Origin: Desulfococcus multivorans
GTDB taxonomy: Bacteria; Desulfobacterota; Desulfobacteria; Desulfobacterales; Desulfococcaceae
Assembly (NCBI RefSeq): GCF_001854245.1
Contig: NZ_CP015381.1
Span: forward strand, 3,135,001 to 3,199,000
Length of the DNA stretch: 64,000 nucleotides
Reading direction: 5' to 3'
The notes under the pieces are model-generated. The model had not been told where the DNA came from and ran no database searches. It worked only from the letters and a program-made list of their open reading frames with translations. Shown here piece by piece: positions 10,831 to 27,925 of the stretch; within the stretch, counting starts at the first letter, position 1, and each line of letters opens with the position of its first letter. The position numbers were made by a program, and so were the translations under genes.

Positions 10831-10922
10831 AAAAAGGGCTACGGCGTATTTTCCGTAACCCTTTGAATTTGTTTGGCTGAGGGACTAGGATTCGAACCTA
10901 GGTTAACGGGGCCAGAACCCGT
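10831..10922. repeat. attL: left copy of the 92-bp direct repeat
   Basis: Identical to 27809-27900 except for one base (T at 10847, C at 27825). It contains the 3' part of the tRNA-Gln gene, from the anticodon stem through CCA, and the tRNA's terminator hairpin (AAAGGGCTACGG 10833-10844 with CCGTAACCCTTT 10853-10864). The tRNA 5' part is missing here, so this is the chromosomal junction left by integration. Confidence 0.93.
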
Positions 10923-10947: not shown

Positions 10948-10976
10948 TTGACATTGTTTTTACTGAACTTTATAGT
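10948..10976 (+). promoter_or_regulatory. Sigma-70 promoter of the integrase
   Basis: TTGACA at 10948-10953, a 17-base spacer, and TATAGT at 10971-10976. It is 25 bases from the attL repeat. After excision the promoter would sit next to the other element end. Confidence 0.8.
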
Positions 10977-11026
10977 AAAATTATCTTTTGAGCATTCCTT
11001 CCGAAACCCGATAATTCTCATCAAAG

Positions 11027-11047
11027 GTGGTACTGAGGTGGTACAGA
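11027..11047 (+). repeat. Arm-type repeat at the left end (tandem GTGGTACTG/GGTGGTACAG)
   Basis: Two near-identical nine-base units, GTGGTACTG and GTGGTACAG, in tandem. The same 21 bases with one substitution lie at 27775-27795, just inside the right end. The pair flanks the core repeat as arm-type integrase sites do. The left copy overlaps the proposed integrase GTG start. Confidence 0.55.
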
Positions 11048-12273
11048 AAAAACAGTGGCATAACACAAAATACCCCGGAGTACGTTACCGGGAAAGCCAT
11101 TCCAGACCGCTGCACAATGGCCGTCCCGATCGTTACTATGTCATTCGGTACAAACTTCACCAAAAGCTTATTGGCGAGGCCTGCGGATGGGCTTCCGAGG
11201 GCATGACACCCTCAAAGGCCGCGAAATGGCGCGCCGATCTGGTGGAGAATATCCGTACAGGGAAACACCCGCAGAGCTTGAAGGAAGCCCGGCAGATGGA
11301 AGCCGACCGCCGGAAGATGGATGCAATTCGTAAAAAACAGGCCGAGATCGACGCCCAGACCTTTGATGACCTTGCCGTCAAGTTTCTGGCCTGGGGCCGG
11401 GAGAATAAAAAGTCATGGGCCGACGATGAGGGGCGCTACCTAAACCACGTCAAGCCCGTCATCGGGAAAATGCGCGCCCTCGACGTCTCCCCCTTCAACC
11501 TCGAAAAGATCCGCTCCAACGCCCAAAATAAAGGCGTATCCCCGAAAACCGTTGAACACATTCTCGCTTTCGTTCGGAGCGTCTACCGCAAAGCCAAATC
11601 GTGGGGCATTTACAAAGGGGATATCCCGACGGATGAAATTCAATTCCCCCGGTTTGACAACCAGCGAACCCGGTTCCTGAGTCTTGAGGAAGCCCATACT
11701 CTTCTTGAGGCTATATACGCATCTTCAGAAACAGTTTACGCTCAAGCCATACTTTCCCTTTATGCCGGGCTTCGCTTTGGCGAAATTGCCGCCTTGACCT
11801 GGGGGGCTGTGGATTTTGAAAACGGGTTGATTCATATCTTTGACCCAAAAGGCGTTGACACCCGCCGAGCCTATATTGTGCCGAAACTCAGACAGGTTCT
11901 TGAGGACATCAAACCCCCGCGACCGGAACCTGAAGCGCTGGTCTTTCCTGCCAGGACAGGAGGCCAACAACAGCACGTTTCAACAGGGTTTTATCGAGTG
12001 GTGAGCCGTCTGTTTAATAAAGGAGTGACCGACCGGCGGCAAAAAGTCACGTTTCACACCCTGAGACACACGTTTTGCTCATGGCTTGCCATGAACGGCG
12101 CGACGCCGTTTGAAATCATGGATCTTGCAGGGCACAAAGACCTTGCTATGACGAAGCGATATTCACACGTTGCAGAAAATTCACAGCGGAAGGCCGTTGA
12201 GCGGATGACGGATGAATTTGAATCGAGCAGATCCGAGGCCTTGAAAGTTCAGCGGATAAAAGAACGGGCCTGA
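11038..12273 (+). CDS. int: Tyrosine-type integrase of the tRNA-Gln element
   Basis: Site-specific recombinase that integrates and excises the element. Of the 411 residues, the N-terminal part holds a DUF4102-like/arm-binding region (KYPGVRYRESHSRP onward), followed by a SAM-like core-binding domain (about 105-190) and the catalytic domain. Catalytic residues are visible as R in YAGLRFGEIAAL, H-x-x-R in HTLRHTF, H in DLAGHKD and the nucleophile Y in TKRYSHVA. The frame extends upstream to a TTG at 10948, but that codon is part of the -35 box, so the GTG at 11038, with AAAGG upstream, is more likely. Confidence 0.9.
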   Translation: MVQKKQWHNTKYPGVRYRESHSRPLHNGRPDRYYVIRYKLHQKLIGEACGWASEGMTPSKAAKWRADLVENIRTGKHPQSLKEARQMEADRRKMDAIRKKQAEIDAQTFDDLAVKFLAWGRENKKSWADDEGRYLNHVKPVIGKMRALDVSPFNLEKIRSNAQNKGVSPKTVEHILAFVRSVYRKAKSWGIYKGDIPTDEIQFPRFDNQRTRFLSLEEAHTLLEAIYASSETVYAQAILSLYAGLRFGEIAALTWGAVDFENGLIHIFDPKGVDTRRAYIVPKLRQVLEDIKPPRPEPEALVFPARTGGQQQHVSTGFYRVVSRLFNKGVTDRRQKVTFHTLRHTFCSWLAMNGATPFEIMDLAGHKDLAMTKRYSHVAENSQRKAVERMTDEFESSRSEALKVQRIKERA

Positions 12274-12801: not shown

Positions 12802-12957
12802 ATGAAAAAGTATAGCCAACCAATCGGGGTTTTACCAGGCGCACACCAGGCCGCCCGTATCCGGGCCGCACAACTCGGTTGTTCGCTTAAAATTTATGTT
12901 TCAGCACTGATAGAGCGGGATACAGCCGAAAGCGCGAGAAAGGAAAATCGTCGATGA
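12802..12957 (+). CDS. Small protein, possible ribbon-helix-helix DNA-binding, 51 aa
   Basis: Begins MKKYSQPIGVLPGAHQAARI and contains AAQLGCSLKIYVSALIERD, a pattern loosely like an Arc/MetJ-type ribbon-helix-helix protein. It has the ribosome-binding site GAGGAGGGG and its TGA overlaps the next ATG by four bases, so the two genes are coupled. Position directly after the promoter suggests a regulator of the element. Function inferred only from size, charge and place. Confidence 0.6.
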   Translation: MKKYSQPIGVLPGAHQAARIRAAQLGCSLKIYVSALIERDTAESARKENRR

Positions 12958-13190
12958 CGAAAGACAAGCCCGAAGGTTTCAACCACCACACCCTCGAACG
13001 ACTCCGCACCGAACTTCCCCCGGTATTCGGACGCCCCGCAATCGGTGAGCTGTTGCCCGGCGTAATATCGTCAAAGACGCTGGCGAACCTTGCCGCGATT
13101 GGCGAAGGCCCTGAATACAAGATGGTCCGGCGGAGATGCGTCTATGAACGAGACAGCTTTCTGGAATGGCTTGAGGGACAGACCCGCTAA
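12954..13190 (+). CDS. AlpA/excisionase-like helix-turn-helix protein, 78 aa
   Basis: The segment FGRPAIGELLPGVISSKTLANLAAIGEGPEYKMVRRRCVYERDSFLEWLEGQ resembles MerR/AlpA-type HTH excisionase proteins, in which a helix-turn-helix (about 28-48) is followed by a wing containing arginines and a closing helix with the DSFLEWL pattern. Such proteins act as directionality factors or as transcriptional activators of satellite genes. It overlaps the 51-aa gene by ATGA. A hairpin that may act as a terminator follows. Confidence 0.7.
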   Translation: MTKDKPEGFNHHTLERLRTELPPVFGRPAIGELLPGVISSKTLANLAAIGEGPEYKMVRRRCVYERDSFLEWLEGQTR

Positions 13191-13204
13191 GGCCAAAAAA
13201 GGAA

Positions 13205-13227
13205 AAGCCCCGTGGCGATCGGGGCTT
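13205..13227 (+). terminator. Hairpin after the AlpA-like gene
   Basis: AAGCCCCG (13205-13212) and CGGGGCTT (13220-13227) form a perfect 8-bp stem with a seven-base loop, followed by CTTC rather than a long T run. A weak or attenuating terminator is the likely reading. Confidence 0.5.
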
Positions 13228-13307
13228 CTTCAAAAACCGAGGTTGACGGGAAGGCCACCACACCGCTCCACATAAACCCCACACAAAGGACAGGATCATA
13301 CCCCCCC

Positions 13308-13358
13308 ATGAGGTGTACAATGCTCAACGTCAACCATAACTTATGAGGTGTACAATGC
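13308..13358 (+). repeat. Duplicated ribosome-binding/start module, 16 bp repeated at 35-bp spacing
   Basis: ATGAGGTGTACAATGC occurs at 13308-13323 and 13343-13358. Each copy carries AGGTG followed by an ATG. The first ATG (13320) opens an 8-codon frame, MLNVNHNL, whose TGA lies inside the second copy; the second ATG (13355) opens a 38-codon frame that overlaps the DUF3987 start. Confidence 0.65.
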
Positions 13359-13471
13359 CTAAAATTACAGTGCCAGAACATTCCAGCTTTGTCAACAAAA
13401 CAGTTGACAAACTTTTCCCTACTATGCCCTACACCCTGCCCCTCTATACGATTGAAGGGGGGTGTGAATGA
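13355..13471 (+). CDS. Short ORF, 38 aa, coupled to the DUF3987 gene
   Basis: Reads MPKITVPEHSSFVNKTVDKL and ends EGGCE. The TGA overlaps the next ATG (ATGA), and AGGTG lies about six bases upstream of the start. No family is recognised. It may be a real small protein or a leader whose translation feeds ribosomes to the 516-aa gene. It also contains GTCAAC at 13391 and GTTGAC at 13403, the hexamer found in the cluster downstream of that gene. Confidence 0.45.
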   Translation: MPKITVPEHSSFVNKTVDKLFPTMPYTLPLYTIEGGCE

Positions 13472-15018
13472 CTGGAAACCCACCGAACCAAGACGAAATC
13501 AGACAAAAGGTCCGACAGCGTCAGGAGGAAGCTTCTTCTTCTGCCGGGCAGGAGGAAGATGCCCCTTCCCCGTGGGATGTTGCAAGGGAACAATTCCCTA
13601 TAACTGATTTTCCCGGCAGAATCCTCCCCACCAAAATTGATGACTCCCTGCGGCAGTTGGCAAAAGCACATTCTGCAAATCTTCTTCCCTTGCCGGGCGC
13701 AGCGCTCGCCATTCTATCGAGCGTTCTCGGGGGAACGGTTTCGATCCGCGCAAAAAAATCATGGAAGGAAATTTTGTCCCTCTGGTTTGTCGATATCGGG
13801 CCTTCAGGATCGGGGAAGACACATGCGCCGAGGGCCTTGTGCAGTCTTCTTTATGATGCACAGGAACGGGCTGAGCTTGAATACCGAGCACGGGTTGAGG
13901 AAGAAAACCTGAAGTCAGCGAAGGAGCGGAACAAAATCCCACGGGCAAGGGGTTACTTCAGCACGGACCTTACCCTTGAGGGCCTTCGGGCCGATGTCTC
14001 ATCCCCGAGCGGGCATGGGGGGCAGGTTGTCATCCTTGACGAGCTATCCTCCTTTCTGACGGGGCAAAACCAGTACAAGGCCGGTAAGGGGAATGACCGA
14101 GAAATGTGGCTTGCTATCCACGACGGAAAGCCGGGAAGGGCGTCAAGGGCGTCAGACGCACCGTTTATTAAGGGTGCGCGGGTTTCGATCTTCGGAGGAA
14201 TTCAGCCCGGCATATGGCATCAAATCTTCGGGGGAAAAAACAGCAAGGCTCTTGTTGACGGCACCGTTCAACGGTTCCTCCCCACCATCAAGGGTCCGAA
14301 CTTCATCCCCATCACAGATGAAGACTGGGACGACTACAACTGTGAGGCTTGGAAGAGCACCCTTAAAAGCGCCATGACCTGGGCAGACAAGCGATGTTCA
14401 GAGCAGGGATGGAAACCTTTCAACCTAACGGCTGATGAGGCCGGATGGGACACATTCAAGGCCTGGGCGAACGATATTAAACTCGTCGCGCTTTCCATGC
14501 CGACAGAGCTAAACCCTTTTGTAAATAAGATGCCTGGGCATGCGTTGCGCCTGGCCGGGGCGATTCATTGCCTTCATCGTTTTTCCAATGGCCTTGACCC
14601 GAGCCCTACCTTATCCTGCCAGGATATCAACAACGGAATCCGGGCGGCTGAATTTTATGCCGGGCAGATGGTTGAGGCTATGGCAATTCTGAAGAGCGGA
14701 GAAGGGTCCGCATGTGATGCACCAAACGAGACGGTTAAACGCTTGGCCGAGGTTCTGAAATCCCTTCGAGGGGAAACCACCGATGGAAGGCTTGCCGTTG
14801 GGTTCATCCATGAGCGATTCAATCAGGGGTTGCCGAAGGAACAGCGGATTGGATCAGCGAGGGGCATGGGTTCCCTTCTTAGGGGCCAGGGGTTGACGAT
14901 ACCGGCAGGGAAGCACCGGATAGGCGAAAAGAGCGGATATTCAATTCTACGATGGGACCAAAAAGCAGAACTGTTCTTAAAACGATGTCAACAAGTCAAC
15001 ATGTCAACAAACCTTTAA
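13468..15018 (+). CDS. DUF3987-type P-loop replication protein (helicase-like)
   Basis: A 516-residue cytosolic protein with a Walker A loop GPSGSGKTH (about 112-120) and a Walker B strand VVILDEL (about 188-194). The surrounding arrangement (FPGRILPTKIDDSLRQLAKAHSANLLPLPGAALAILSSVLGG, then the P-loop) is typical of DUF3987 proteins of phage satellites and plasmids. These are found beside primases and probably act in DNA replication as the ATPase/helicase part. The next gene is a primase, and a dense repeat cluster starts inside its last codons, which supports a role in initiating element replication. Exact activity is inferred. Confidence 0.8.
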   Translation: MTGNPPNQDEIRQKVRQRQEEASSSAGQEEDAPSPWDVAREQFPITDFPGRILPTKIDDSLRQLAKAHSANLLPLPGAALAILSSVLGGTVSIRAKKSWKEILSLWFVDIGPSGSGKTHAPRALCSLLYDAQERAELEYRARVEEENLKSAKERNKIPRARGYFSTDLTLEGLRADVSSPSGHGGQVVILDELSSFLTGQNQYKAGKGNDREMWLAIHDGKPGRASRASDAPFIKGARVSIFGGIQPGIWHQIFGGKNSKALVDGTVQRFLPTIKGPNFIPITDEDWDDYNCEAWKSTLKSAMTWADKRCSEQGWKPFNLTADEAGWDTFKAWANDIKLVALSMPTELNPFVNKMPGHALRLAGAIHCLHRFSNGLDPSPTLSCQDINNGIRAAEFYAGQMVEAMAILKSGEGSACDAPNETVKRLAEVLKSLRGETTDGRLAVGFIHERFNQGLPKEQRIGSARGMGSLLRGQGLTIPAGKHRIGEKSGYSILRWDQKAELFLKRCQQVNMSTNL

Positions 15019-15163
15019 ATATCAAGGGTCGGTGATGTTGACATGGAAAAGGCAACGTCAACATGTCAACGGAAAAAGTTGACGTTGTTGACATACAAAA
15101 AACAACGTCAACGCTCGGAAGCCCTGAAAATGCTGGTTCCGTTGACATGTTGACGTTGTTGAC
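14987..15163. repeat. Iteron-like cluster of GTTGAC/GTCAAC
   Basis: Twelve copies of one hexamer in both orientations within 177 bases: GTCAAC at 14987, 14995, 15003, 15057, 15065 and 15107; GTTGAC at 15037, 15078, 15087, 15141, 15149 and 15158. Several are paired at eight- or nine-base spacing (for example GTTGACATGTTGAC at 15141-15154). It lies between the DUF3987 and primase genes, a natural location for a replication origin or a multi-site operator. Three more copies lie before the DUF3987 gene (13329, 13391, 13403). Confidence 0.8.
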
Positions 15164-15187
15164 TTGTTTTCTAAGACAGGAATGAAA

Positions 15188-16486
15188 ATGGACCTTCAGA
15201 GCATCATCCAAAGAGACGGCTTCACCCTGAAACGCGAAGCCGGGACCAACGGCGGAGAGTTGGCCGGGCCTTGTCCCTTTTGCGGGGGAGAAGATCGCTT
15301 CAGGGTATGGCCGGAGAAGGGTCGATATTGGTGCAGGCAATGCAGGGCGGGGGGTGATGCTATCCAATATCTGCGAGAGCGGGAAGGCATGACATACCGC
15401 GAAGCATGTGCCGCTATCGGGGTTGAACCGAAGAACGCCCGTTCCCCTGCCCGGCAGGAAGAACCAGGTTGGTTATCCGTTGAATGGCAGACAGCGACCT
15501 GGGCCTTGCTTGAAGAAACCCGCCTATCCCTGCAATGGTACGAACCGGCAAAAAACTACCTCAAGGGGCGAGGGCTAAACGACGAAACCATATCCATGCT
15601 TGGCTATAACCCAACATCGGCGCACATGGACCGGGCCGCCTGGGGGCTTCCAAACGAGACGAACCCACGAACCGGAGGGCCGAAGCGGGTCTGGATACCG
15701 CGCGGGATTGTTATCCCCAACGTCCTCGATGACGGCCTGATTCATCGTCTCAGGATTCGGTTACCTCCGGATGAGTTCGAAAGATCGAAAGAATGGACCA
15801 ACGGCAAGGGAATTAAATATGCCGAGATCCCCGGAAGTGGGCCTGATCCTCTTCTCCTGCCGGGCAGAGATGGGGCGGAAGCCTGGGCCGTGGTTGAATC
15901 GGAGCTTGATGCCTACCTCATCCACCAAGAAGCCGGAGATCTTGTCAACGTCCTGGGCCTGGGAAGCACGACAGCGAGGCCGACGGTGCAAATGTTGCAG
16001 GTCATGGCAGGGAAAAGGGTCCTGCTATGCCTCGACCATGACGCCGCCGGCTGGAGGGCAACCGATAGGTTGCCGGGCGAATACTGGCCGGTGCCGGAAG
16101 GGAAAGACCCCGGAGAGTACCACCAGGCCGGGGGAGATATCCGCGCATGGATTGAGGCGAGACTGAAAGAGAGTGTCGCGTCAGAGGCACATCAGGAAGC
16201 GAGAGAGCCTATCCAGAATGACGATGCCGGGGAGATCAAGGAAGACAAGGGTCCTTCCCTGCCATGCGGAAACCCGGAATTCCGATGTTACCACCTTCGG
16301 GGCGGTCAATGCTTTTACAAATCGAATTGGGGACCGATAGCCGAACTCGACCGATGTCCCATGATTTACGGTCTTGGGCATGGTGAGGCGCATCCGGATC
16401 TTGATGCGCTTGAGAGACAACGAACCAAACACGGGCTTGACCCGGAACTCATGTGGATTTACGGAGGCGCAAAACATGACCACTAA
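15188..16486 (+). CDS. CHC2 zinc-finger/Toprim primase of the element
   Basis: Primase of 432 residues that would make RNA primers for element replication. The zinc ribbon reads CPFCGG (C29, C32) with CRQC (C49, C52), followed by GGDAIQYLREREGMTYREA, as in the DnaG zinc domain. A Toprim domain follows with VVESELDAYL (about 235) and LLCLDHDAAGW (about 283). A C-terminal segment has four cysteines (CGNPEFRCYHLRGGQC...RCP), possibly a second metal site. The ATG at 15188 is chosen for its AGGA spacing; an upstream ATG at 15182 is too close to it. Confidence 0.85.
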   Translation: MDLQSIIQRDGFTLKREAGTNGGELAGPCPFCGGEDRFRVWPEKGRYWCRQCRAGGDAIQYLREREGMTYREACAAIGVEPKNARSPARQEEPGWLSVEWQTATWALLEETRLSLQWYEPAKNYLKGRGLNDETISMLGYNPTSAHMDRAAWGLPNETNPRTGGPKRVWIPRGIVIPNVLDDGLIHRLRIRLPPDEFERSKEWTNGKGIKYAEIPGSGPDPLLLPGRDGAEAWAVVESELDAYLIHQEAGDLVNVLGLGSTTARPTVQMLQVMAGKRVLLCLDHDAAGWRATDRLPGEYWPVPEGKDPGEYHQAGGDIRAWIEARLKESVASEAHQEAREPIQNDDAGEIKEDKGPSLPCGNPEFRCYHLRGGQCFYKSNWGPIAELDRCPMIYGLGHGEAHPDLDALERQRTKHGLDPELMWIYGGAKHDH

Positions 16487-16817
16487 ACGCAAAACCCGGA
16501 AGCAGGGCATCACCAGGGGGGATATTCAACGTTTTCGCCGCGACTTGTGGGATTTTCGATGGCATACCATTGTAGTTGCCGAATGGGTCCACCGGAAGAA
16601 AGAGTTGGTGAACTGCCTGGAGCGGGAGGCCGATGTTCTGGCCGAGCTATGGCGCACAATGCCCGACGATGTAAAGAAACAATTCAATGCGTCTAAAAGG
16701 CGGATCGATAGGGAGCTGAGACGGAGCTTTTTGTTCCCACTACAGGCGGTGTTTGTAGTGAAAGAACTCCCGATGCGTGGTAGAATAGATTCACTTTTGG
16801 AGGGATTCACCGCCTGA
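16476..16817 (+). CDS. Hypothetical basic protein, 113 aa
   Basis: Starts at ATG 16476, ten bases before the primase stop, with GGAGG eight bases upstream, so it is probably translated with the primase. The protein (MTTKRKTRKQGITRGDIQRF...) is highly basic and rich in arginine, lysine and tryptophan, predicted largely helical and without membrane segments. A nucleic-acid-binding role would suit. Its 3' end runs into the GTGAATC repeat cluster, so it could bind that cluster. The family is not recognised. Confidence 0.65.
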   Translation: MTTKRKTRKQGITRGDIQRFRRDLWDFRWHTIVVAEWVHRKKELVNCLEREADVLAELWRTMPDDVKKQFNASKRRIDRELRRSFLFPLQAVFVVKELPMRGRIDSLLEGFTA

Positions 16818-17254
16818 CAGATTCACCCTGGTTTTTACTCTTTATCCCATATCAGCATTAATAATTGTTTATTTTGTGTTGACAAAAAGTTCACGGGGGA
16901 TATACTGACCCAAAATCCTCTCAAGTTTTCCCTCTTTTTTTATCCCTCTCAAGGCAGTTTCAAACCAAATTAAAAACAGATTCAAGCCGGATTCAAAAGT
17001 GAAACAAAAAAAGCTCAAAAGCGAATCCGCTCAAAAAATCACCAATATTTCATAGCAAAAACAGATAGTTACATGGTTTCATAGGGGGTGAATCTGGGGT
17101 GAATCCCGGTGAAACTTTGAAACCCTGAAAAGCCCTTAAAGGCAAAAGTGAATCCTGAATCCGGGATTCACTTTTACACATACGGATTCACCCAAGTTTC
17201 ACCCCAGGTGAATCTTTGTAAGTATCTAAAATCCCTCTTAAAGAAAAGTGAATC
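16789..17254. repeat. Second iteron-like cluster, GTGAATC/GATTCAC
   Basis: Nine copies in both orientations: GATTCAC at 16789, 16804, 16820, 17165, 17185; GTGAATC at 17088, 17099, 17148, 17208; and one more GTGAATC at 17248, giving ten in 466 bases. Related GTGAAAC/GTTTCAC words lie among them. A GTGAATCC...GGGATTCAC pair at 17148-17171 can form a hairpin. The surrounding DNA is AT-rich. P4-type satellites carry comparable iterons (GGTGAACA class) at ori and crr, so a second origin element is one reading. Confidence 0.75.
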
Positions 17255-17997: not shown

Positions 17998-19101
17998 CTA
18001 CCCGGGTCCGCGATATTCCGGCACCTGGTGCGGCAGCACCGAATAGCAATATTTCAGCTCGCCTCCGCAATCCGGGCAGGTCGGCCCGCTCTTTTCACGG
18101 GTATCCCTGGGCGTTTCCGGAACCACCAGCTCAAAGGCGTGCATCATCTCGATGGATGCCCGGACGTTTTCAAGCGGAACGCCGCTGCAGGAGTGCATGA
18201 ACCCATAGTAGCGCACCTTCATGAATCCGGGCGGCAGGGAATGCTGCAAAAACCGGCTCATAAAATCCTGGGCATCGAGCTCCATGTAGCGGGTGCGACG
18301 GCTCTTCGGCTTTTTATACGAAAACGTGACCGTGCCGTCGGCTGCATCGACGATCCGATGATCGGAGATCGCCACCTTGAATACATAGTGCGACAGATAG
18401 CGGATGCTCTGCTCGGCCGCCCCGACCGGCTGGATGTTCACATTCCAGCCTTCCCGGAAAATACCTGGGTCGATAAGGCGGCTCATGCCGGCGTCACGCA
18501 TCAGGTCCCTGAATTTCGCCCGACAGATCCGGGACAGCGCTTTGTTGGGAACATAGAAGTCCGGCCTGGACGGATGCCATGCGTTGTCGTCTTTTGACCA
18601 TGCCCCGCCGGCAACCACATAATGGATATGTGGATGGTAGTTCAAGGTTCGGCCCCAGGTGTGGAGCACGCCGAAGAAGCCGGGGACATCTCCGCCGATG
18701 AACTTTCCATCCCTGACCAACTTTTTCATGGCCGCCGAAGACGCCTTGAAAAGGGCGTCATAGGCAATGCTCTGCCGGCTTCTGAAAAAGCGACGAATCT
18801 CCTTCGGGACGGTGAAGGTGATCATGAAATATGGCCCCGGCACCTGTCGGTCCAACTGGCGATCCATCCAGTCCAGTGCCTTTTGATTCTGGCATGCCGG
18901 GCAGTGGCGGTTGCCGCAGGAGCGAAAAATATGGTGGTGTTTTCCACATCCGGCGCATTCGTATACGGTCATACCGCATGCCGGTGTTCGGCATGACAGG
19001 ATGGCATCGATGACGCTCCGGTGGTTCCGGGGCATCCGGTCACCGTATTTTTCAAGATATGCCGGCGCATGCTCGCGAAAGATGTTTTGAATGGCGACCA
19101 T
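17998..19101 (-). CDS. IS91-family rolling-circle transposase
   Basis: HUH-type single-strand transposase of 367 residues. The N-terminal zinc domain reads CGMTVYECAGCGKHHHIFRSCGNRHCPACQ (about 41-71). The metal-binding HUH motif is HPHIHYVV (about 155-162), and the paired catalytic tyrosines are in RYLSHYVFKVA (about 245-255). The C-terminus has a further CPDCGG site. The family moves by one-ended rolling-circle replication. The gene overlaps the recombinase gene by 50 bases, indicating coupled expression. It appears intact. Confidence 0.9.
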   Translation of the reverse strand: MVAIQNIFREHAPAYLEKYGDRMPRNHRSVIDAILSCRTPACGMTVYECAGCGKHHHIFRSCGNRHCPACQNQKALDWMDRQLDRQVPGPYFMITFTVPKEIRRFFRSRQSIAYDALFKASSAAMKKLVRDGKFIGGDVPGFFGVLHTWGRTLNYHPHIHYVVAGGAWSKDDNAWHPSRPDFYVPNKALSRICRAKFRDLMRDAGMSRLIDPGIFREGWNVNIQPVGAAEQSIRYLSHYVFKVAISDHRIVDAADGTVTFSYKKPKSRRTRYMELDAQDFMSRFLQHSLPPGFMKVRYYGFMHSCSGVPLENVRASIEMMHAFELVVPETPRDTREKSGPTCPDCGGELKYCYSVLPHQVPEYRGPG

Positions 19102-19993
19102 TTTCGAAACCCCTCATGCTCTGGTTGATGATCTGATAGGCATCCTCCTGTCCTTTTTGGGTGAGATGCAGATAGACCATAGTGGTTTCGAGCCTGGCAT
19201 GTCCCAGGTAGCGCTGGATGACCCGAATGTTCACGCCCTGCTCCAGCAAATAGGTTGCATAGGAGTGGCGAAGGGTATGAATGGAAACGTGTCGTTTAAT
19301 AATGCCGGCCTGCTCTCTTGCAGCCCGAAAGGCGCCCTGAACGCTGTCAATGGACATCGGGGTTTCGGACGTGGAAGCGCTCTTTCCGCTCCTGCCCAGA
19401 GCCGGGAAGATCAGAACGGGATTTCGATGGACCAGCCAGTATCGACGGAGCAAGTGGTAGGTTTCCTCGGGCAAGGGCACGTATCGGTCTTTGGATCCTT
19501 TGCCTCGGTGAATATGAATCATCATGCGTTTTCCATCAATGTCGGATACTTGCAGGTAAAGAGCCTCCTTGAGCCGAAGCCCGCAGGTGTAAACGGTGAC
19601 CAGGAATGTGTAGTTGTGGAACGTACGGACACGGCTCAGGATCTTCCGAACCTCGTCAGGGCTGAGCACGCTCGGAAGGCGGTTTTCTTTTTGTGCCTTG
19701 AGGTATTCAAACAGCGGCCATTTTCGCTGAAGCACATTGATGAAGAAAAACTTCAGGGCACAGAAGCAGATTTTCATGGTTGACGGCGCCCAATTGGCCT
19801 CGTTTCGGAGGTGCAGGAAATATTTTTTTAACTCGTCCTCTGTTATTTTTTGGGGCTCTTTGTTGTAAAATTCAATGAGCTTGCGTACAGCTCGGGCATA
19901 GGTCTGCTGGGTGCTTTCGCTCATGCCGGCCAATTGAAAGGCCTTGATGGCTTCGTCATACCAAGGGGTCTGAAGTGTTTTGGGTTTTGTCAT
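19052..19993 (-). CDS. Tyrosine recombinase accompanying the IS91 transposase
   Basis: A 313-residue XerC/D-like recombinase. A SAM-like N-terminal domain (about 10-95) is followed by the catalytic domain with R in YTCGLRLKEALYL, K in RGKGSKDRYVPL, H-x-x-R in HTLRHSY, H in RYLGHARLE and Y in TTMVYLHL. All catalytic residues are present. This partner is found in a subgroup of IS91-like elements upstream of and overlapping the transposase; its exact part in transposition is not settled. It starts at 19993 with GAGAGGTATC just upstream. Confidence 0.88.
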   Translation of the reverse strand: MTKPKTLQTPWYDEAIKAFQLAGMSESTQQTYARAVRKLIEFYNKEPQKITEDELKKYFLHLRNEANWAPSTMKICFCALKFFFINVLQRKWPLFEYLKAQKENRLPSVLSPDEVRKILSRVRTFHNYTFLVTVYTCGLRLKEALYLQVSDIDGKRMMIHIHRGKGSKDRYVPLPEETYHLLRRYWLVHRNPVLIFPALGRSGKSASTSETPMSIDSVQGAFRAAREQAGIIKRHVSIHTLRHSYATYLLEQGVNIRVIQRYLGHARLETTMVYLHLTQKGQEDAYQIINQSMRGFENGRHSKHLSRACAGIS

Positions 19994-21716: not shown

Positions 21717-23630
21717 TCACTCTGCCGTCAACAGCGTTGCCAGCCTGCCCAGCGCCTCGGATACGATCCGGCCCTGCTGCTCGATACTGCCGATGATCTG
21801 CTGCGGGGTGCGGTCATCCACCTTGGTGACGGCGTTGGGGTTGACCGCTTTCAGGTCAAACACGGCGGCGTCGATATCGGCTGCCTTGGTCTCTATATCT
21901 TTAGCGGCCTTTTCCTTTTCGCGGATCTGCCCGTCCACCGCGTTCAGCGCTTCTTTATCGGCTTTCTCTTTCTTCAACCGTTTGAGCTGTTCCTTCAGGT
22001 CAACCACATCCGCCTTGATGGCGGCTGCCTCATCCAAAAGCGGCTGCATCTCTTCCCGCGCCTTGGCACGACGGGCGGCAAAATCGACGGTCCAGGAGTA
22101 GCGGCTTTCGCCTTGCGGCGTGCCGCGCTTTAGCAACAGGCCGGCGTAACTCGGGAAGGACTTGCCCGCGTTCGCTTCGTCCTCTTTCCAGTCAGCAACG
22201 AGCTTGGGCGGAAGCTGAGCGTCGGCCAGCACCGAACCATCCATATCGAAACCGAAGTGAGCCAGGGTCAGCGGCGTCTTCTTGCCGACCTTGACGCCAG
22301 AGAGGTCGTAGTACCAGATTTTTTCGGTCTTCCGCCCTTTGGTGAAGAACAGCAGGTTGGTTTTCACTCCGGCCCCGGCGGTGGAGAAGACCCCACCGGG
22401 CAGGCTGACGATGGCCCACAGGTCACATTCGTCCACCAGCTTACGCTTGGTCTCGACAAAGGCGCTCTCGTTGGTGCGAAACAGCAGCCCCTCATCAAGG
22501 ACGATGGCGCAGGTGCCATCCGGGGCCAGTTCGCTGAGGATATCCTGCACGAACAGCACTTGGGTGGAACTGGTCTCAAAGTCGAAATGCTTCTGGGCGT
22601 CCTTGCCCTCCTTGCCGCCAAAGGGCGGGTTGGTGAGGATGTAGTCGAAGAATTTCGGGGCCTGCTCAAACAGCGCGGCGTAGGTGGCGCGGCCGGTCAG
22701 AGTGTTGCCGTGCCAGAGGTTGGGCTGGTCGATGCCGTGCAGCACCAGGTTGGCTAGAGCAATCGGGAAAACCAGGTTTTCCTTTTCCCGGCCGAAGAAG
22801 GTGTCGTGCTTCAGGGTGTCGATATCGAGGCTTGCGGCGCTCTGCCCCAACTTGCGGGAGATGTGCTCGTAAGCGATGGCCAGGAAGCCGCCGGTGCCGC
22901 AGCCTGGGTCGTAGATGGTTTTGCCCGGTTCGGGATCGACCGTATGCACCATGGCACGGATCACCTCGCGCGGGGTGAAGAACTGGCCGCCGTCGGAGTT
23001 CTTCTCGCCCATTTTCAGCAGCAGGTCTTCATACACCTGGGACAGGGTGAAAAAGTGGGTGTCGTCCACGTGGTCGATATGGATCTGGTGCACCTTGTCG
23101 AGGATGTCACGCAAGTTGGTTTCCGAATCCACCCGCACCCGCTCAACCGCCGTCATGATGCGGCCGATGATGCGCTGCTTGCGCGAGGCCGAGGGGTTGG
23201 GCAACCCGGTGCGGGCATCAACATCCAGTCCGTGCAGATGCGGCAGCAACTCCTTGTTGATGAAGTCGAACAGCCTGCCATCGCCTGCGGCGAACAGTTC
23301 CTGCCGCTTCCAGCCATAGGGTTTGCCGTCGCTGGTCTGAAGATGATCGTCCTTTTCGGAAAAAGGCGCGGCCCAGTCCTGCCAGCGGTAGGGGCTGGCG
23401 AGGGCCGGGGTGAAGGTTGCCCCGACTGCCTCCGCCTTGTCTCGGGCCTTCTCCTCCTGGGCATCGAGGATGCGCAGGAACAGAATCCAGGTCAACTCCG
23501 GCACATACTGCAGAGCACTGGCGCAGTTAGAGCGGCGCATGATGTCGCAGATCGATTTGACAAAGGCCGACAGCGACTGGGTGGAGGCGATGGCCTTGGG
23601 CTGTTTTTTCTTGGTTGTTTTTCGTGCCAT
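21717..23630 (-). CDS. hsdM: Type I restriction-modification methyltransferase subunit
   Basis: N6-adenine DNA methyltransferase of 637 residues. The SAM-binding motif I reads DPGCGTGGFLAIAYEH (about 243-258) and the catalytic motif IV is NPPFGG in DYILTNPPFGG (about 335). The N-terminal helical domain precedes them and the C-terminus is a long coiled coil (about 545-600) that contacts HsdS. It lies two bases after hsdS on the same strand, the last gene of the operon. It appears intact, so host DNA should be protected. Confidence 0.94.
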   Translation of the reverse strand: MARKTTKKKQPKAIASTQSLSAFVKSICDIMRRSNCASALQYVPELTWILFLRILDAQEEKARDKAEAVGATFTPALASPYRWQDWAAPFSEKDDHLQTSDGKPYGWKRQELFAAGDGRLFDFINKELLPHLHGLDVDARTGLPNPSASRKQRIIGRIMTAVERVRVDSETNLRDILDKVHQIHIDHVDDTHFFTLSQVYEDLLLKMGEKNSDGGQFFTPREVIRAMVHTVDPEPGKTIYDPGCGTGGFLAIAYEHISRKLGQSAASLDIDTLKHDTFFGREKENLVFPIALANLVLHGIDQPNLWHGNTLTGRATYAALFEQAPKFFDYILTNPPFGGKEGKDAQKHFDFETSSTQVLFVQDILSELAPDGTCAIVLDEGLLFRTNESAFVETKRKLVDECDLWAIVSLPGGVFSTAGAGVKTNLLFFTKGRKTEKIWYYDLSGVKVGKKTPLTLAHFGFDMDGSVLADAQLPPKLVADWKEDEANAGKSFPSYAGLLLKRGTPQGESRYSWTVDFAARRAKAREEMQPLLDEAAAIKADVVDLKEQLKRLKKEKADKEALNAVDGQIREKEKAAKDIETKAADIDAAVFDLKAVNPNAVTKVDDRTPQQIIGSIEQQGRIVSEALGRLATLLTAE

Positions 23631-23632
23631 GG

Positions 23633-24766
23633 TTACATCTCGAAGGCCTGCGCCAGAATTTTCTGGGGCAGGAGGTTAATGTCGTTGAGTTTGGATTCGA
23701 TTGCCTGCCGCATCGGCCTTAGAGCGGCCAATGCTGCGGACGCCTTTTGCTGGATGGTGAAATCGGGCAGTTCTATTTCACCCTCGGCCAGGCGGTTGAA
23801 CAGCATACGCTCGCGCACCGCGCCACGGGCAAGGGATAGAATACACTGTTCGCCGAGCGGCGAACGCAACCAGCAGTAGAACCAGCGGGAATCGACAACG
23901 CCCTTTTTGCCCTGAAGCGCTACATAATCCGGGCTGGTGATGCCGGGGGTGTCATCGTCATCCACCAGAGCAATGGAGCCGATCAGAATACGCATGGGGT
24001 TGTAGAAGACGGTGCCGGGGAACACCGGCTTGTAGCGTTCCGGTTTCTTGCCCGGCGGCTCCTTGGCCGGGGCCAGACCGTCGCGGGTGGCTCCCAAAAC
24101 GGGATAGTCCGCCCAGCTGTCGCCGATGCCCTGCTTGACCTCTTCCAGCACCTCGCCGAGGTTGTGCCTGGTGGTTCTGCCATACTGGATACTGTCGAGG
24201 ACGATGGCATCGGCCAGCTTCGTTGTCTCTCGCAACTGCGCCTCCGCCGCCTGCCGGGCCTTGTCCGCCTCGGCCAGTTGGGCTTTCAGGCGGGTGGCGA
24301 TTTGGCGTTGTTTTTCGATGGGCTTTGGAAAACTAATTTCAAATGCTTCTAAAGTGGATTTGGAGACCTCTACAAATGTCGCACCACTTCCCAATGCTTG
24401 TATGTCGGCCATACGGTGTTTGAGGGTGTAGTACAGAAACTCAGGGTCTATCTCACTTGAGCAGACAAAGCTTTTGCAGCCTTGGTTCGTGTGTAAAGAA
24501 CAGCCAGCTATCCCAAGATGCCCGATAGGTGCTCTCGACGACATTACAACAGCGCCTTGCGGAACCAAAGGGAGATTACAACTTGCTCGACCCATCGCCG
24601 TGATCAGTCTGGATGAAGTTGTAATGACAGGCTCGTTGAGTTTACCAAGGTCTGTTGGCGTGACCCAAACGAGATTGCCACTCCAATAGGCTGGGTTCGA
24701 TGATTCGGGTGTTGTCCCGCTCAATACGGTTGTGATTTTCCCAAGTGGTGAAGTTATCCAACTCAT
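23633..24766 (-). CDS. hsdS: Type I restriction specificity subunit
   Basis: Determines the bipartite target of the type I enzyme. Two target-recognition domains are visible: MSWITSPLGKITTVLSGTTPE... to about residue 145, and from about 205 onward (KQGIGDSWADYP...). A central helical spacer (about 150-200, KQRQIATRLKAQLAEADKARQ) and a C-terminal helix set the spacing of the half-sites. The ATG at 24766 overlaps the hsdR stop by four bases; an upstream frame extension is antisense-like filler. The first TRD ends in KPIEKQRQIATRL, the usual conserved helix. Confidence 0.92.
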   Translation of the reverse strand: MSWITSPLGKITTVLSGTTPESSNPAYWSGNLVWVTPTDLGKLNEPVITTSSRLITAMGRASCNLPLVPQGAVVMSSRAPIGHLGIAGCSLHTNQGCKSFVCSSEIDPEFLYYTLKHRMADIQALGSGATFVEVSKSTLEAFEISFPKPIEKQRQIATRLKAQLAEADKARQAAEAQLRETTKLADAIVLDSIQYGRTTRHNLGEVLEEVKQGIGDSWADYPVLGATRDGLAPAKEPPGKKPERYKPVFPGTVFYNPMRILIGSIALVDDDDTPGITSPDYVALQGKKGVVDSRWFYCWLRSPLGEQCILSLARGAVRERMLFNRLAEGEIELPDFTIQQKASAALAALRPMRQAIESKLNDINLLPQKILAQAFEM

Positions 24767-27174
24767 ACCCCAAACAACCTCCCCTTGGCCTCGTGCATCA
24801 CCGCCACCGGCTTGCCGATCTTTTTCAGCGCCGCCAGCCCGCCCGCCAGCTTGATCTCCGGCACCTCCCACAACGCCGGGGTCTCCAGGGCCTCTGTGCC
24901 GCCCTGGCTGAACTGGTGCCCAAGCCCCTTGAGTACGACGGCGGCCTTGGCGTCCATGCCGCCGAACCAGCCCGCATTGCTGGAGATGTAAAGGTTGCCC
25001 CGCTCAGTGCGTTTGAGCGCCCGGACCTTGTATCCGTGGTGGCCGAAGAAGTCGTAAAGATCGAAGTCGGTCATCTGGTCGATCTCGCGGATCACCTCGG
25101 GGCTGAAGTTGTCGCCCAACAGGTGATTGATCAGGCTGCGGCGCTTCTGGGTCTCGATCCAGAGTTGCCGGAACTCATCGAGGTTGTGGGCCTCGGAGAC
25201 CACCCGCTGGATTACCTCGCGGCGGTACTCGTCCACCGGAATCGGCGTGTCGCGACCGCCCCTGCTGGTGAGGATGAAGCGGCCTTGGGGGGTAACGGTC
25301 ACCCAATGACCGCCCATCTCGGCAACGCTGGGCGGTTCGGGCGGCGGCCATGGCGGGTCGACAATAATCCCGCCATCATCCCCCCCATCTCCACCACCAC
25401 GAGGACGCGGCGGCTTGGTAATGAAATCGGTGCCGAACAGGTTGGTAACGTCGGTGTAATCGTAGAGCCAGAACTTGTACTTCTGCGTCTCTTCGTGGAT
25501 GCGGGTGCCGCGCCCCACCATCTGGTAGAACTTGATGGGTGATTGCAGGTAGCGAAAGAAGACCACGGCATTGAGGCGTTCGATATCGACCCCCGCCTCC
25601 AGCAGGTCCACGGTGCAGGCGATAAAGGCGCGTTCGCCGGAGCCCCGCATGGGCTCGATCATGTCCGCGCCGTTGTTCGGCCCGCCCATGCACTTGAAGG
25701 CGTAGTGGTCCTTGGGCGTCTGGTTGTGCTCTTTGCACCAGCGGGCATAGAGGTTGTTCATCTGCATGGCCACCCGGTCGGCGTGGATCTCGCGATTACA
25801 GAAGATGATCACCTTCTGTTCCGGGCCGCCGTTGGCGCAGAGCAGCCGAAACAGATCCTCGCACATGGTGGGGGTGCGCAGTTCGATGAACAGCTCGTCG
25901 TCGAAATCCTTGCCGGTGTATTCGTCCTTGGTGAGATCAGCCTCGGTAAGCGGCTTGCCGGTACGAATATCCTTCACGGCTGCCTTGAGGATCTCCTCTT
26001 TGGTAAAGACACGCTTGTCGATGTCGGCCTTGCGCTTGACGATCTCGCAGGCGGCCAGATAGCCATCCTCCTGGGCCTGAATGAGGGTGTATTCATAGAC
26101 CGGCTCGCCGAAATACTTGTGGTTGTTGGCGGTGATCTCCTGATCCTCGGCGGTGGCGTGTTTTGATTCCTGCAGCTTGCGCGGCGTGGCGGTCAGGCCG
26201 ATGTGGATGGCGCCTCCGTTGCGTTTGAGCACCTCGGACCACTTGCCCCACGCAGAACGGTGGCACTCGTCGATGATGATGACGGAAAAGGCATCCTCGC
26301 CGTAATGTTGGGACAAAAAGCTGGCAAAGCCGTCGTCCTCGTCGTCCAGACCCAAGGTCTGATAGGTGGCGATATGAATGCGGGCGTTGGCGGCGGCGTT
26401 ACCGCCTTTTTCGGTCTTGACGATGCGAACGTTGTCGCCGAAGGCGGCCTTGAGCTTGGTATAGGCCTGCTCGCGCAGCTCGTCGCGGTCGCAGAGAAAG
26501 AGCGCCGGTTTTGGCAGTTGCCCGGCCTGCCCCAGCCGCCAGAGCAGGTTGGTGGCGATGATGGTCTTGCCCGAACCGGTGGCAAGCGTCAGCAGCACCC
26601 GGGCCGTTTCACCCTGTTGGCGGCAGCGGATGATCTTCTCAAAGGCGGCGCGAATGGCGGCGTCCTGATAGTAGCGGGTCAGCGACCAGGCCGGGCTGTC
26701 GGCCTGAAAGAGCATGGCCGCCTCGGGCTTGCTGATGTCGATACCGGTATTCTTCGCATAGCGAGCGGTCAGATCCAGGTGCGGCGGAAAATTGGAAAAG
26801 GGAAACGGCCCGCCCTGCAGGTTGGTGAAGTAGTCGAATTCGCCGTAGAAATGGCCGTTGGTGGCGAAGACATATTTCACCTCGAAGCGCCGGCAATCGG
26901 CATACCCCTTGGCCTGCTGCATGCCCTTGAGGGGGTCTTCCGTCTCTTTCTTGGCTTCGAGCACGCCGACGGGCAAGGCTTTCGGCATGTCGCCCACCTG
27001 TACGCAGAGCAGATAATCGGTGCGGCCTGACCCCTTGCGACGGCGGCCTTTCGGGCCGGTCGGTTCGACCGGAGCGGGGGTTTCCATCTTGATCCATTGG
27101 TGATCGTTATACCCCCTATCCCGTAATACGGGATCGATCAGAAAGAACCGGGTTTCCTGTTCGTTGTAGCTCAT
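24763..27174 (-). CDS. hsdR: Type I restriction enzyme endonuclease/translocase subunit
   Basis: DNA-translocating endonuclease of 803 residues, of the shorter EcoEI-like type. An N-terminal nuclease region includes the PD-(E/D)xK-like pattern ending GVLEAKKE (about 70-80). The SF2 motor has LATGSGKT (Walker A, about 195), IIIDECHRS (DEAD-like, about 300) and later helicase motifs VIIFCNREIHAD and VGRGTRIHEE. It overlaps the upstream HTH gene and downstream hsdS by four bases each. No break seen. Confidence 0.93.
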   Translation of the reverse strand: MSYNEQETRFFLIDPVLRDRGYNDHQWIKMETPAPVEPTGPKGRRRKGSGRTDYLLCVQVGDMPKALPVGVLEAKKETEDPLKGMQQAKGYADCRRFEVKYVFATNGHFYGEFDYFTNLQGGPFPFSNFPPHLDLTARYAKNTGIDISKPEAAMLFQADSPAWSLTRYYQDAAIRAAFEKIIRCRQQGETARVLLTLATGSGKTIIATNLLWRLGQAGQLPKPALFLCDRDELREQAYTKLKAAFGDNVRIVKTEKGGNAAANARIHIATYQTLGLDDEDDGFASFLSQHYGEDAFSVIIIDECHRSAWGKWSEVLKRNGGAIHIGLTATPRKLQESKHATAEDQEITANNHKYFGEPVYEYTLIQAQEDGYLAACEIVKRKADIDKRVFTKEEILKAAVKDIRTGKPLTEADLTKDEYTGKDFDDELFIELRTPTMCEDLFRLLCANGGPEQKVIIFCNREIHADRVAMQMNNLYARWCKEHNQTPKDHYAFKCMGGPNNGADMIEPMRGSGERAFIACTVDLLEAGVDIERLNAVVFFRYLQSPIKFYQMVGRGTRIHEETQKYKFWLYDYTDVTNLFGTDFITKPPRPRGGGDGGDDGGIIVDPPWPPPEPPSVAEMGGHWVTVTPQGRFILTSRGGRDTPIPVDEYRREVIQRVVSEAHNLDEFRQLWIETQKRRSLINHLLGDNFSPEVIREIDQMTDFDLYDFFGHHGYKVRALKRTERGNLYISSNAGWFGGMDAKAAVVLKGLGHQFSQGGTEALETPALWEVPEIKLAGGLAALKKIGKPVAVMHEAKGRLFGV

Positions 27175-27808: not shown

Positions 27809-27900
27809 AAAAAGGGCTACGGCGCATTTTCCGTAACCCTTTGAATTTGTTTGGCTGAGGGACTAGGATTCGAACCTAGGTTAACGGGGCCAGAACCCGT
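27809..27900. repeat. attR: right copy of the 92-bp direct repeat
   Basis: Matches 10831-10922 with one mismatch. It supplies the 3' portion of the intact tRNA-Gln gene and its terminator, so insertion leaves a working tRNA. Confidence 0.93.
27811..27842 (-). terminator. Terminator of tRNA-Gln
   Basis: On the minus strand AAAGGGTTACGG and CCGTAGCCCTTT form a 12-bp stem (one mismatch) followed by TTCTTTTTCC. It begins nine bases after the encoded CCA. Confidence 0.8.
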
Positions 27901-27925
27901 CGTCCTGCCACTAGACGATCCCTCA
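27852..27925 (-). tRNA. tRNA-Gln, anticodon CTG
   Basis: Seventy-four bases including encoded CCA. The acceptor stem pairs TGAGGGA with TCCCTCA, the anticodon stem ACGGG with CCCGT around loop TTCTGGC (anticodon at 27893-27891), and the T arm contains GGTTCGAATCC. Integration site of the element. It lies 55 bases downstream of gltX on the same strand, so the two may share a transcript. Confidence 0.95.

Follow-up and report, generated by a model that had tools for sequence, protein, structure and literature searches.

A cluster of twelve identical hexamers at the 3' end of a DUF3987 gene is probably (we put the probability at roughly 0.85) the origin from which an integrative element of about 17 kb is replicated; the hexamers would serve as its iterons and the DUF3987 protein encoded directly upstream as the initiator. 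This is the best reading of evidence that is computational throughout, and replication and binding are deduced from it. A preliminary description of the window (the whole 64-kb stretch of DNA analysed here) had proposed a candidate origin with iterons beside helicase and primase genes, and comparison with related elements supports that proposal. In its favour, similar arrays recur at 41 of 66 DUF3987 loci, the repeated word has changed while the layout was kept in a sister element and two further relatives, and DUF3987 is the sole replication-type Pfam match among the annotated genes of two small plasmids, both of which carry arrays.

The island is integrative in structure, being flanked by identical repeats that hold the 3' part of a tRNA-Gln gene. 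Its features are as follows (window coordinates):

10848-10922, no strand: left attachment repeat, 75 bp, identical to 27826-27900
10948-12273, forward strand: tyrosine integrase of the island (PF00589, 2e-24), start codon uncertain
12954-13190, forward strand: AlpA/Xis-like small HTH protein (HTH_17, E 5e-5, below the Pfam cut-off)
13242-13408, no strand: four upstream GTTGAC copies, starting at 13242, 13329, 13391 and 13403
13468-15018, forward strand: DUF3987 gene, proposed Rep (initiator/helicase; PF13148, PHROG)
14716-15015, forward strand: C-terminal winged-helix domain, proposed iteron reader (model pLDDT 89)
14987-15163, no strand: array A, putative origin, 12 exact GTTGAC/GTCAAC sites
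15037-15062, no strand: first 26-bp dyad, consisting of GTTGAC, a 14-nt A-rich spacer and GTCAAC
15087-15112, no strand: second 26-bp dyad, a match to GTTGAC-N14-GTCAAC
15188-16486, forward strand: primase with CHC2-type zinc finger and Toprim (Pfam, PHROG primases)
16788-17254, no strand: second array, origin-like, 13 GTGAAWC/GWTTCAC copies in both orientations
21717-27174, reverse strand: type I restriction-modification cargo (HsdM 21717-23630, HsdS 23633-24871, HsdR 24763-27174)
27826-27900, no strand: right attachment repeat, overlapping tRNA-Gln at 27852-27925

The island also contains an IS91-type transposase (Y2_Tnp) that overlaps a second tyrosine recombinase (17998-19993).

All twelve copies in array A are exact, and their number, their two orientations and their coordinates are as first described. 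The array had been placed between the DUF3987 and primase genes, which holds for nine of the copies, the ones that precede the primase gene; the first three fall in the final codons of DUF3987, which stops at 15016-15018. With GTCAAC counted as plus, the sites follow in the order +++-++--+---, at start-to-start distances of 8, 8, 34, 20, 8, 13, 9, 20, 34, 8 and 9 bp. The array is thus mirror-symmetric, with six sites on either side of a centre at roughly 15074, and its layout reads alike from both ends: every one of the twelve has its mirror counterpart to within 2 bp, a result matched by none of 1000 shuffles of gaps and strands. Just 7 bp (GGAAAAA) separate the two central sites, and the G+C content of the array is 42%, compared with 55% for the window.

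The preliminary description also held that the hexamer is rare by chance, and this is borne out: the rate in the rest of the window predicts 0.125 copies in 177 bases (Poisson P of about 3e-20, for a hexamer that was picked after the fact). The window as a whole has 57 copies, against a mean of 26.8 and a maximum of 42 in 100 shuffles, and array A is its densest hexamer cluster (12 copies), the next independent one being GATTCA at 17089 with 8. This plain density scan covered the window, while defined patterns were searched through the 4.46-Mb host genome. There, GTTGACNNGTTGAC occurs four times, every time inside array A, and GTTGAC-N14-GTCAAC occurs at two places, both in array A. GTTGAC triples in one orientation with gaps of at most 30 occur twice in array A and once elsewhere, and the same counts hold for triples in the mixed order tested. 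Equal density elsewhere in the genome, which had been named as speaking against an origin, was therefore not seen for the patterns searched; what was found is two isolated triples. One could still suppose that the array arose by chance, represents a set of -35 promoter elements or is a simple repeat in decay, since GTTGACA resembles a -35 box and short repeats arise easily. This account is scarcely credible in view of the P value at the local rate; moreover, relatives show the same layout with GCAGAC, GAGGAC and GTGGAC (see below), none of them -35-like, and no promoter-like pairs were found around the array.

Further copies had been described before the DUF3987 gene at 13329, 13391 and 13403; they are present, together with an unlisted one at 13242. 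The segment 13388-13411 forms a perfect inverted pair, TTTGTCAAC/GTTGACAAA, and the four upstream copies are possible autoregulatory or auxiliary sites. The same region contains a direct repeat, ATGAGGTGTACAATGC, with two copies 35 bp apart (13308-13358), which could be an operator. One alternative extends regulation to array A itself, as an operator array at which Rep or an AlpA-like regulator binds and controls transcription of the primase gene (and of rep), with the origin elsewhere. The four upstream copies, two of them in a perfect inverted pair, and the position of the array between two co-directional genes would suit this account. We nevertheless regard it as improbable: an operator with as many as twelve sites in mirror order would be unusual, the coding sequences of L058, L059 and several plasmid genes contain the array at their 3' end, the annotated downstream neighbours vary between plasmids, and a search of 13180-15300 for a sigma-70-like promoter pair found none.

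A single-protein query detected no DUF3987 relatives among the genome contigs; an alignment query detected six there and one on a viral contig. The five relatives aligned (36-48% identity) all have a hexamer cluster at the 3' end of the DUF3987 gene, the word being GAGGAC in L058, GCAGAC in L059, L060 and L006, and ATGGAC/CATGGA on the viral contig L064; L061-L063 end before or within the gene and are not usable. The open reading frames of L058 and L059 read through the array, arguing that the repeats are a feature of the DNA rather than a protein repeat. Arrays are also found in L011, L092, L145 and L147, relatives on the same branch, and in L146 the cluster differs in kind (AACGAA). No significant array is present in L093 or L094, both fairly close relatives; L094 retains two adjacent GCAGAC copies.

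A sister element (L145/L169) in genome G729, from the host's own family, has the same operon in the same gene order. Its proteins are 40% (integrase), 40% (HTH gene), 44% (DUF3987) and 44% (primase) identical to those of the island, and it spans 8.8 kb between 97-bp repeats, the right one at tRNA-Lys. The sister array consists of twelve GCAGAC sites whose order, +++-++--+---, is that of array A, with distances of 9, 9, 36, 19, 9, 32, 9, 19, 36, 9 and 9 bp; ten of the eleven are within 2 bp of those in array A, the exception being the central gap. All twelve of its sites are mirrored as well (0 of 1000 shuffles). The core or inner layout of array A is also kept in L147 (GTGGAC) and L058 (GAGGAC), where a few sites are off by one letter. 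A dyad step of 19-20 bp is common to L058, L145 and L147, and in all three the centre is longer than the 7 bp of the window. In the sister element, a second cluster of seven GCAGAC copies (+++-+++; L169:4442-4529) lies upstream of the HTH gene, about 3 kb upstream of rep, and a cargo ATPase (L169:5064-6302) has a weak match to the MADS defence protein mad8 (9e-11, over 51 residues only).

Inverted copies of one word could also act in RNA, giving the rep-primase transcript an extensive fold through which its translation or termination is controlled. The transcript of array A does fold strongly (-82 kcal/mol, z -8.5 relative to shuffles), as does part of the sister array (z -7.0), and concerted changes of the word would preserve pairing too. 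This explanation is nonetheless quite unlikely, a little more so than an operator. There is no Rfam match; the second cluster of L169, with six of its seven sites in one orientation, reaches only z -1.9 (11 of 200 shuffles as good), and the upstream copies in the window show no unusual fold (z -0.6). Across families GAC is mostly kept beside unrelated triplets, which pairing alone would not require, and in the sister array the gaps between neighbours that do not pair differ from those of array A by no more than 1-2 bp.

Arrays recur well beyond these relatives. In a survey of DUF3987 genes, a hexamer cluster in the 3' zone exceeded all 100 dinucleotide shuffles at 41 of 66 loci, compared with 4 of 65 equal upstream stretches; the 41 include several sets of near kin and are not independent, and 37 of 62 loci were positive when the scan was first run in an earlier form. 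The 66 scored loci consist of the window gene, L058, L059 and L064, 41 genes from whole genomes, 20 from plasmids and E. coli yfjI, with the plasmid sample drawn from 7 of 16 records of one listing and 14 of 45 of another. Left out were duplicates of scored genes, fragments and weak matches (L072, L075-L077, L116-L119, L150-L164), L123 (whose gene runs off the record), L125, L113 and the truncated L061-L063; among these, the phage record L125 has no array and L113 has the same GATGAC cluster as L112. The four positive upstream controls (L132, L133, L135, L140) are all plasmid genes, and in our reading their arrays start farther upstream, within the coding region. The 25 loci with no significant array include E. 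coli yfjI, Sulfitobacter L122, L093 and L094; L101, L106 and L110 equal the shuffle maximum and share their word with the significant L111. Within the window and the stretches around five relatives, a 3' cluster is present at 6 of 6 DUF3987 ORFs and at 2 of 54 other ORFs of at least 250 codons.

The arrays share features beyond their position. The top hexamer contains GAC or GTC in 31 of the 41, compared with 13.5% of hexamers in general and 3 of 65 controls, and lacks it in the other 10; judged by this hexamer, 39 of the 41 are in both orientations. Mirror symmetry was equalled by at most 10 of 1000 shuffles in 10 of the 32 gene arrays tested (by none in L104 and L132 also) and was weak or absent in 22, in a test that counts exact hexamers only and may hide some mirrored sites. 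Two circular plasmids, Microcystis p1 (6,987 bp) and Oscillatoria pOSC7112.05 (7,645 bp), carry arrays of GGTGAC and GTCCAC, respectively. DUF3987 is the sole replication-type Pfam match among the annotated genes of each, as expected of an initiator. The annotated gene of Microcystis p1 (L120) covers only 8-261 of the 364 profile positions and ends about 440 bp before the array.

The DUF3987 protein of the window belongs to its family by a wide margin (PF13148, E 4e-38, 131.9 bits against a curated cut-off of 27), has a PHROG match to 'DNA helicase' (3.5e-12), and is the one DUF3987 match in the host genome (G000). DUF3987 is also its one Pfam domain, with neither DUF927 nor the Primase_Cterm/D5_N type detected. 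The full-length structural model is of low quality over the ATPase core (mean pLDDT 66.6); modelling the C-terminal 100 residues on their own yields a confident winged helix (pLDDT 89), with three helices (5-20, 28-36, 48-57) and strands at 67-69, 72-75 and 77-79 that include the beta-hairpin wing. By VIA, this model matches F93 of STIV (2co5) over 86 aligned residues (rmsd 3.3) with a Z of 7.3, tied with Rio2 kinase, a middling score in the range usual for small domains; other VIA matches include MarR and ORC entries. Foldseek returned no PDB match with E < 0.001 for either the full-length or the C-terminal model. That no SaPI or SCC Rep is among the structure matches listed for either model says nothing against a relation.

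The wing of this domain may bear on the choice of word. Its variable turn is IGE in the window protein (within HRIGEKSGY), and ANG followed by K, R or H in all six proteins with a GCAGAC array (L145, L059, L091, L006, L011, L092); IGE, ANK, WRG and CNG are the turns in four proteins with other array words. In a phylogeny built on the ATPase core, the six ANG/GCAGAC proteins do not cluster together; the tree requires three changes, two of them imposed by well-supported branches. The prediction from wing to word failed for L093, which has an ANG wing and no significant array, and L094, with two GCAGAC copies and the turn SNG, also goes against the match. The correspondence is a lead drawn from the sequences of ten proteins, several of them close kin, and not a proven code.

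These observations suggest how an origin of this kind might work. The DUF3987 protein would be the initiator of array A, with its C-terminal winged helix binding the word NNN-GAC (here GTT-GAC). The two mirror halves of six sites would place the protein on both sides of the centre, and the number of sites per half suggests one ring helicase for each. The ATPase part would open A-rich stretches and then work as a helicase, and the Toprim primase from the adjacent gene would start synthesis on the excised circle. DNA binding, helicase activity, bidirectional replication and continuing replication of the element are all inferred here.

The second array of the island is a separate matter. Two exact tandem pairs of GTGAAWC lie within it, with a single further, imperfect pair elsewhere in the host genome; by the shuffle test the array is not mirror-symmetric (459 of 1000). 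The host genome contains no DUF927 match, and searches for DUF3987 and DUF927 revealed no cognate initiator gene there for this array. With one DUF3987 gene in the host and no DUF927, the island seems to hold a second origin-like array without an initiator of its own, which would be a remnant or a site for the Rep of another element. A blind DNA scan of viral contigs for two tandem GTGAAWC copies gave 64 loci, 15 of them with at least six clustered copies, and 11 of these 15 are at the 3' end of a DUF3987 homologue (identified by Pfam for seven, and by homology to those seven for L197, L203, L216 and L219). The 11 are not all independent, since L216 is a 100% match to L193 over the protein end. 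One further clustered locus adjoins a DUF927-Cch gene (L236).

Repeat arrays also occur at origins of transfer and at packaging sites, and array A could in principle be one of these instead of a replication origin. The winged-helix matches do include the relaxosome accessory protein of pCW3 bound to oriT (5vfx). Even so, this is very unlikely: the gene at the array encodes neither a relaxase nor a terminase but a DUF3987 ATPase, to which primase domains are fused or adjacent in several scanned cases, and the blind GTGAAWC scan led to a DUF3987 homologue at 11 of 15 clusters.

A scan of viral contigs for GTTGAC triples found 42 loci, ten with at least six clustered copies, and at none of the 42 was there a DUF3987 homologue (tblastn, 12 queries, 1e-8); similar arrays thus exist in other settings. 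Ten ORFs neighbouring these loci gave one weak AAA match, one terminase, one methylase and seven without a match. The dyad-spacer pattern proved not specific in viral contigs, a DUF3987 homologue being present at 1 of 12 loci (L082). Dense GTTGAC arrays in two orientations are found at L017:10680-10965 and L037:7401-7635, near ORFs that lack Pfam matches except for a weak AAA match in one ORF of L037; these arrays are maybe origins of another initiator family.

An origin at array A would give a testable function to DUF3987, a family present on islands, phage-like contigs and plasmids of several phyla, and would point to possible replication start sites in the elements that bear it. One word exchanged at all twelve sites within a constant geometry amounts to a natural experiment in the co-change of initiator and origin, and incompatibility groups may become readable from sequence. 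A broader view, which we put forward tentatively and with rather more doubt than belief, is that DUF3987 proteins could form a large unnamed class of initiators across phyla that recognizes a mostly fixed GAC plus a triplet set by the wing. All twelve sites would then have been re-lettered in step with the protein while the mirror geometry of six plus six sites (two ring helicases) was kept, and the second, differently lettered origin of the island would be fired by the Rep of another element.

Several known systems resemble the arrangement described here. A classical iteron plasmid replicon combines a plasmid Rep family with direct iterons in one orientation; here the DUF3987 protein has no plasmid-Rep Pfam match, and the sites are in both orientations. 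Phage P4 carries iterons of the same kind at two separate places in one element, ori and crr, which are served by the alpha protein. The two GCAGAC clusters of L169 are reminiscent of P4 ori/crr, though alpha belongs to another protein family. In the literature searched, from which most subscription journals fall outside coverage, no report of DUF3987 iterons was found, and a search for yfjI gave none on DUF3987 arrays by title. Kazlauskas et al. 2018 predicted that DUF3987 is a novel family of helicases, fused to primases, and suggested C-terminal winged helices for origin recognition; 'iteron' does not appear in the main text of that paper (PMC5862659). The PICMI satellites of Vibrionaceae have an int-alpA-primase arrangement, the search model for them uses DUF3987 and DUF5906 as the primase marker, and deletion of prim lowers the number of circular copies; in contrast, the present element is 17 kb with restriction-modification cargo, and 'iteron' is absent from the paper on PICMI (PMC10803314).

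The closest parallels are the SaPI, PICI and SCCmec elements. Arrays 3' of rep are read by the C-terminal domain of the protein in SaPI and in SCCmec Cch2, and the origins of Gram-negative PICIs are also 3' of rep (PMC7581432, PMC6092414). The isolated C-terminal domain of Cch2 binds a direct-repeat region with AAGTG iterons downstream of its own gene; Cch2 has a Primase_Cterm domain and three iterons, whereas a DUF3987 protein and twelve mirror-ordered sites are found here (PMC7581432). More generally, the SaPI and SCC Reps described there are of the DUF927 or Primase_Cterm/D5_N type. Of the parts of a whole PICI (att repeats, integrase and excision gene), the element has the 75-bp repeats and a PF00589 integrase, and as candidate for the excision gene the AlpA/Xis-like HTH protein, whose match is below the Pfam cut-off. 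The primase gene differs from SaPI/PICI in lying 3' of the array, as does the word in being a mostly fixed GAC plus a variable triplet. As in the pri-rep-ori of SaPI/PICI elements, an initiator helicase gene (here DUF3987, in a presumptive role) ends in a DNA-binding domain (here a predicted one) and is followed immediately 3' by an array of short iterons, with two iteron sets, a primase adjacent or fused, and an island with an integrase and an excision gene, here a candidate (PMC7581432, PMC6092414). The island thus appears to use a Rep of another family, DUF3987, in a module that works like PICI/SaPI rep-ori, and it is classed beside these elements rather than as a member of them.
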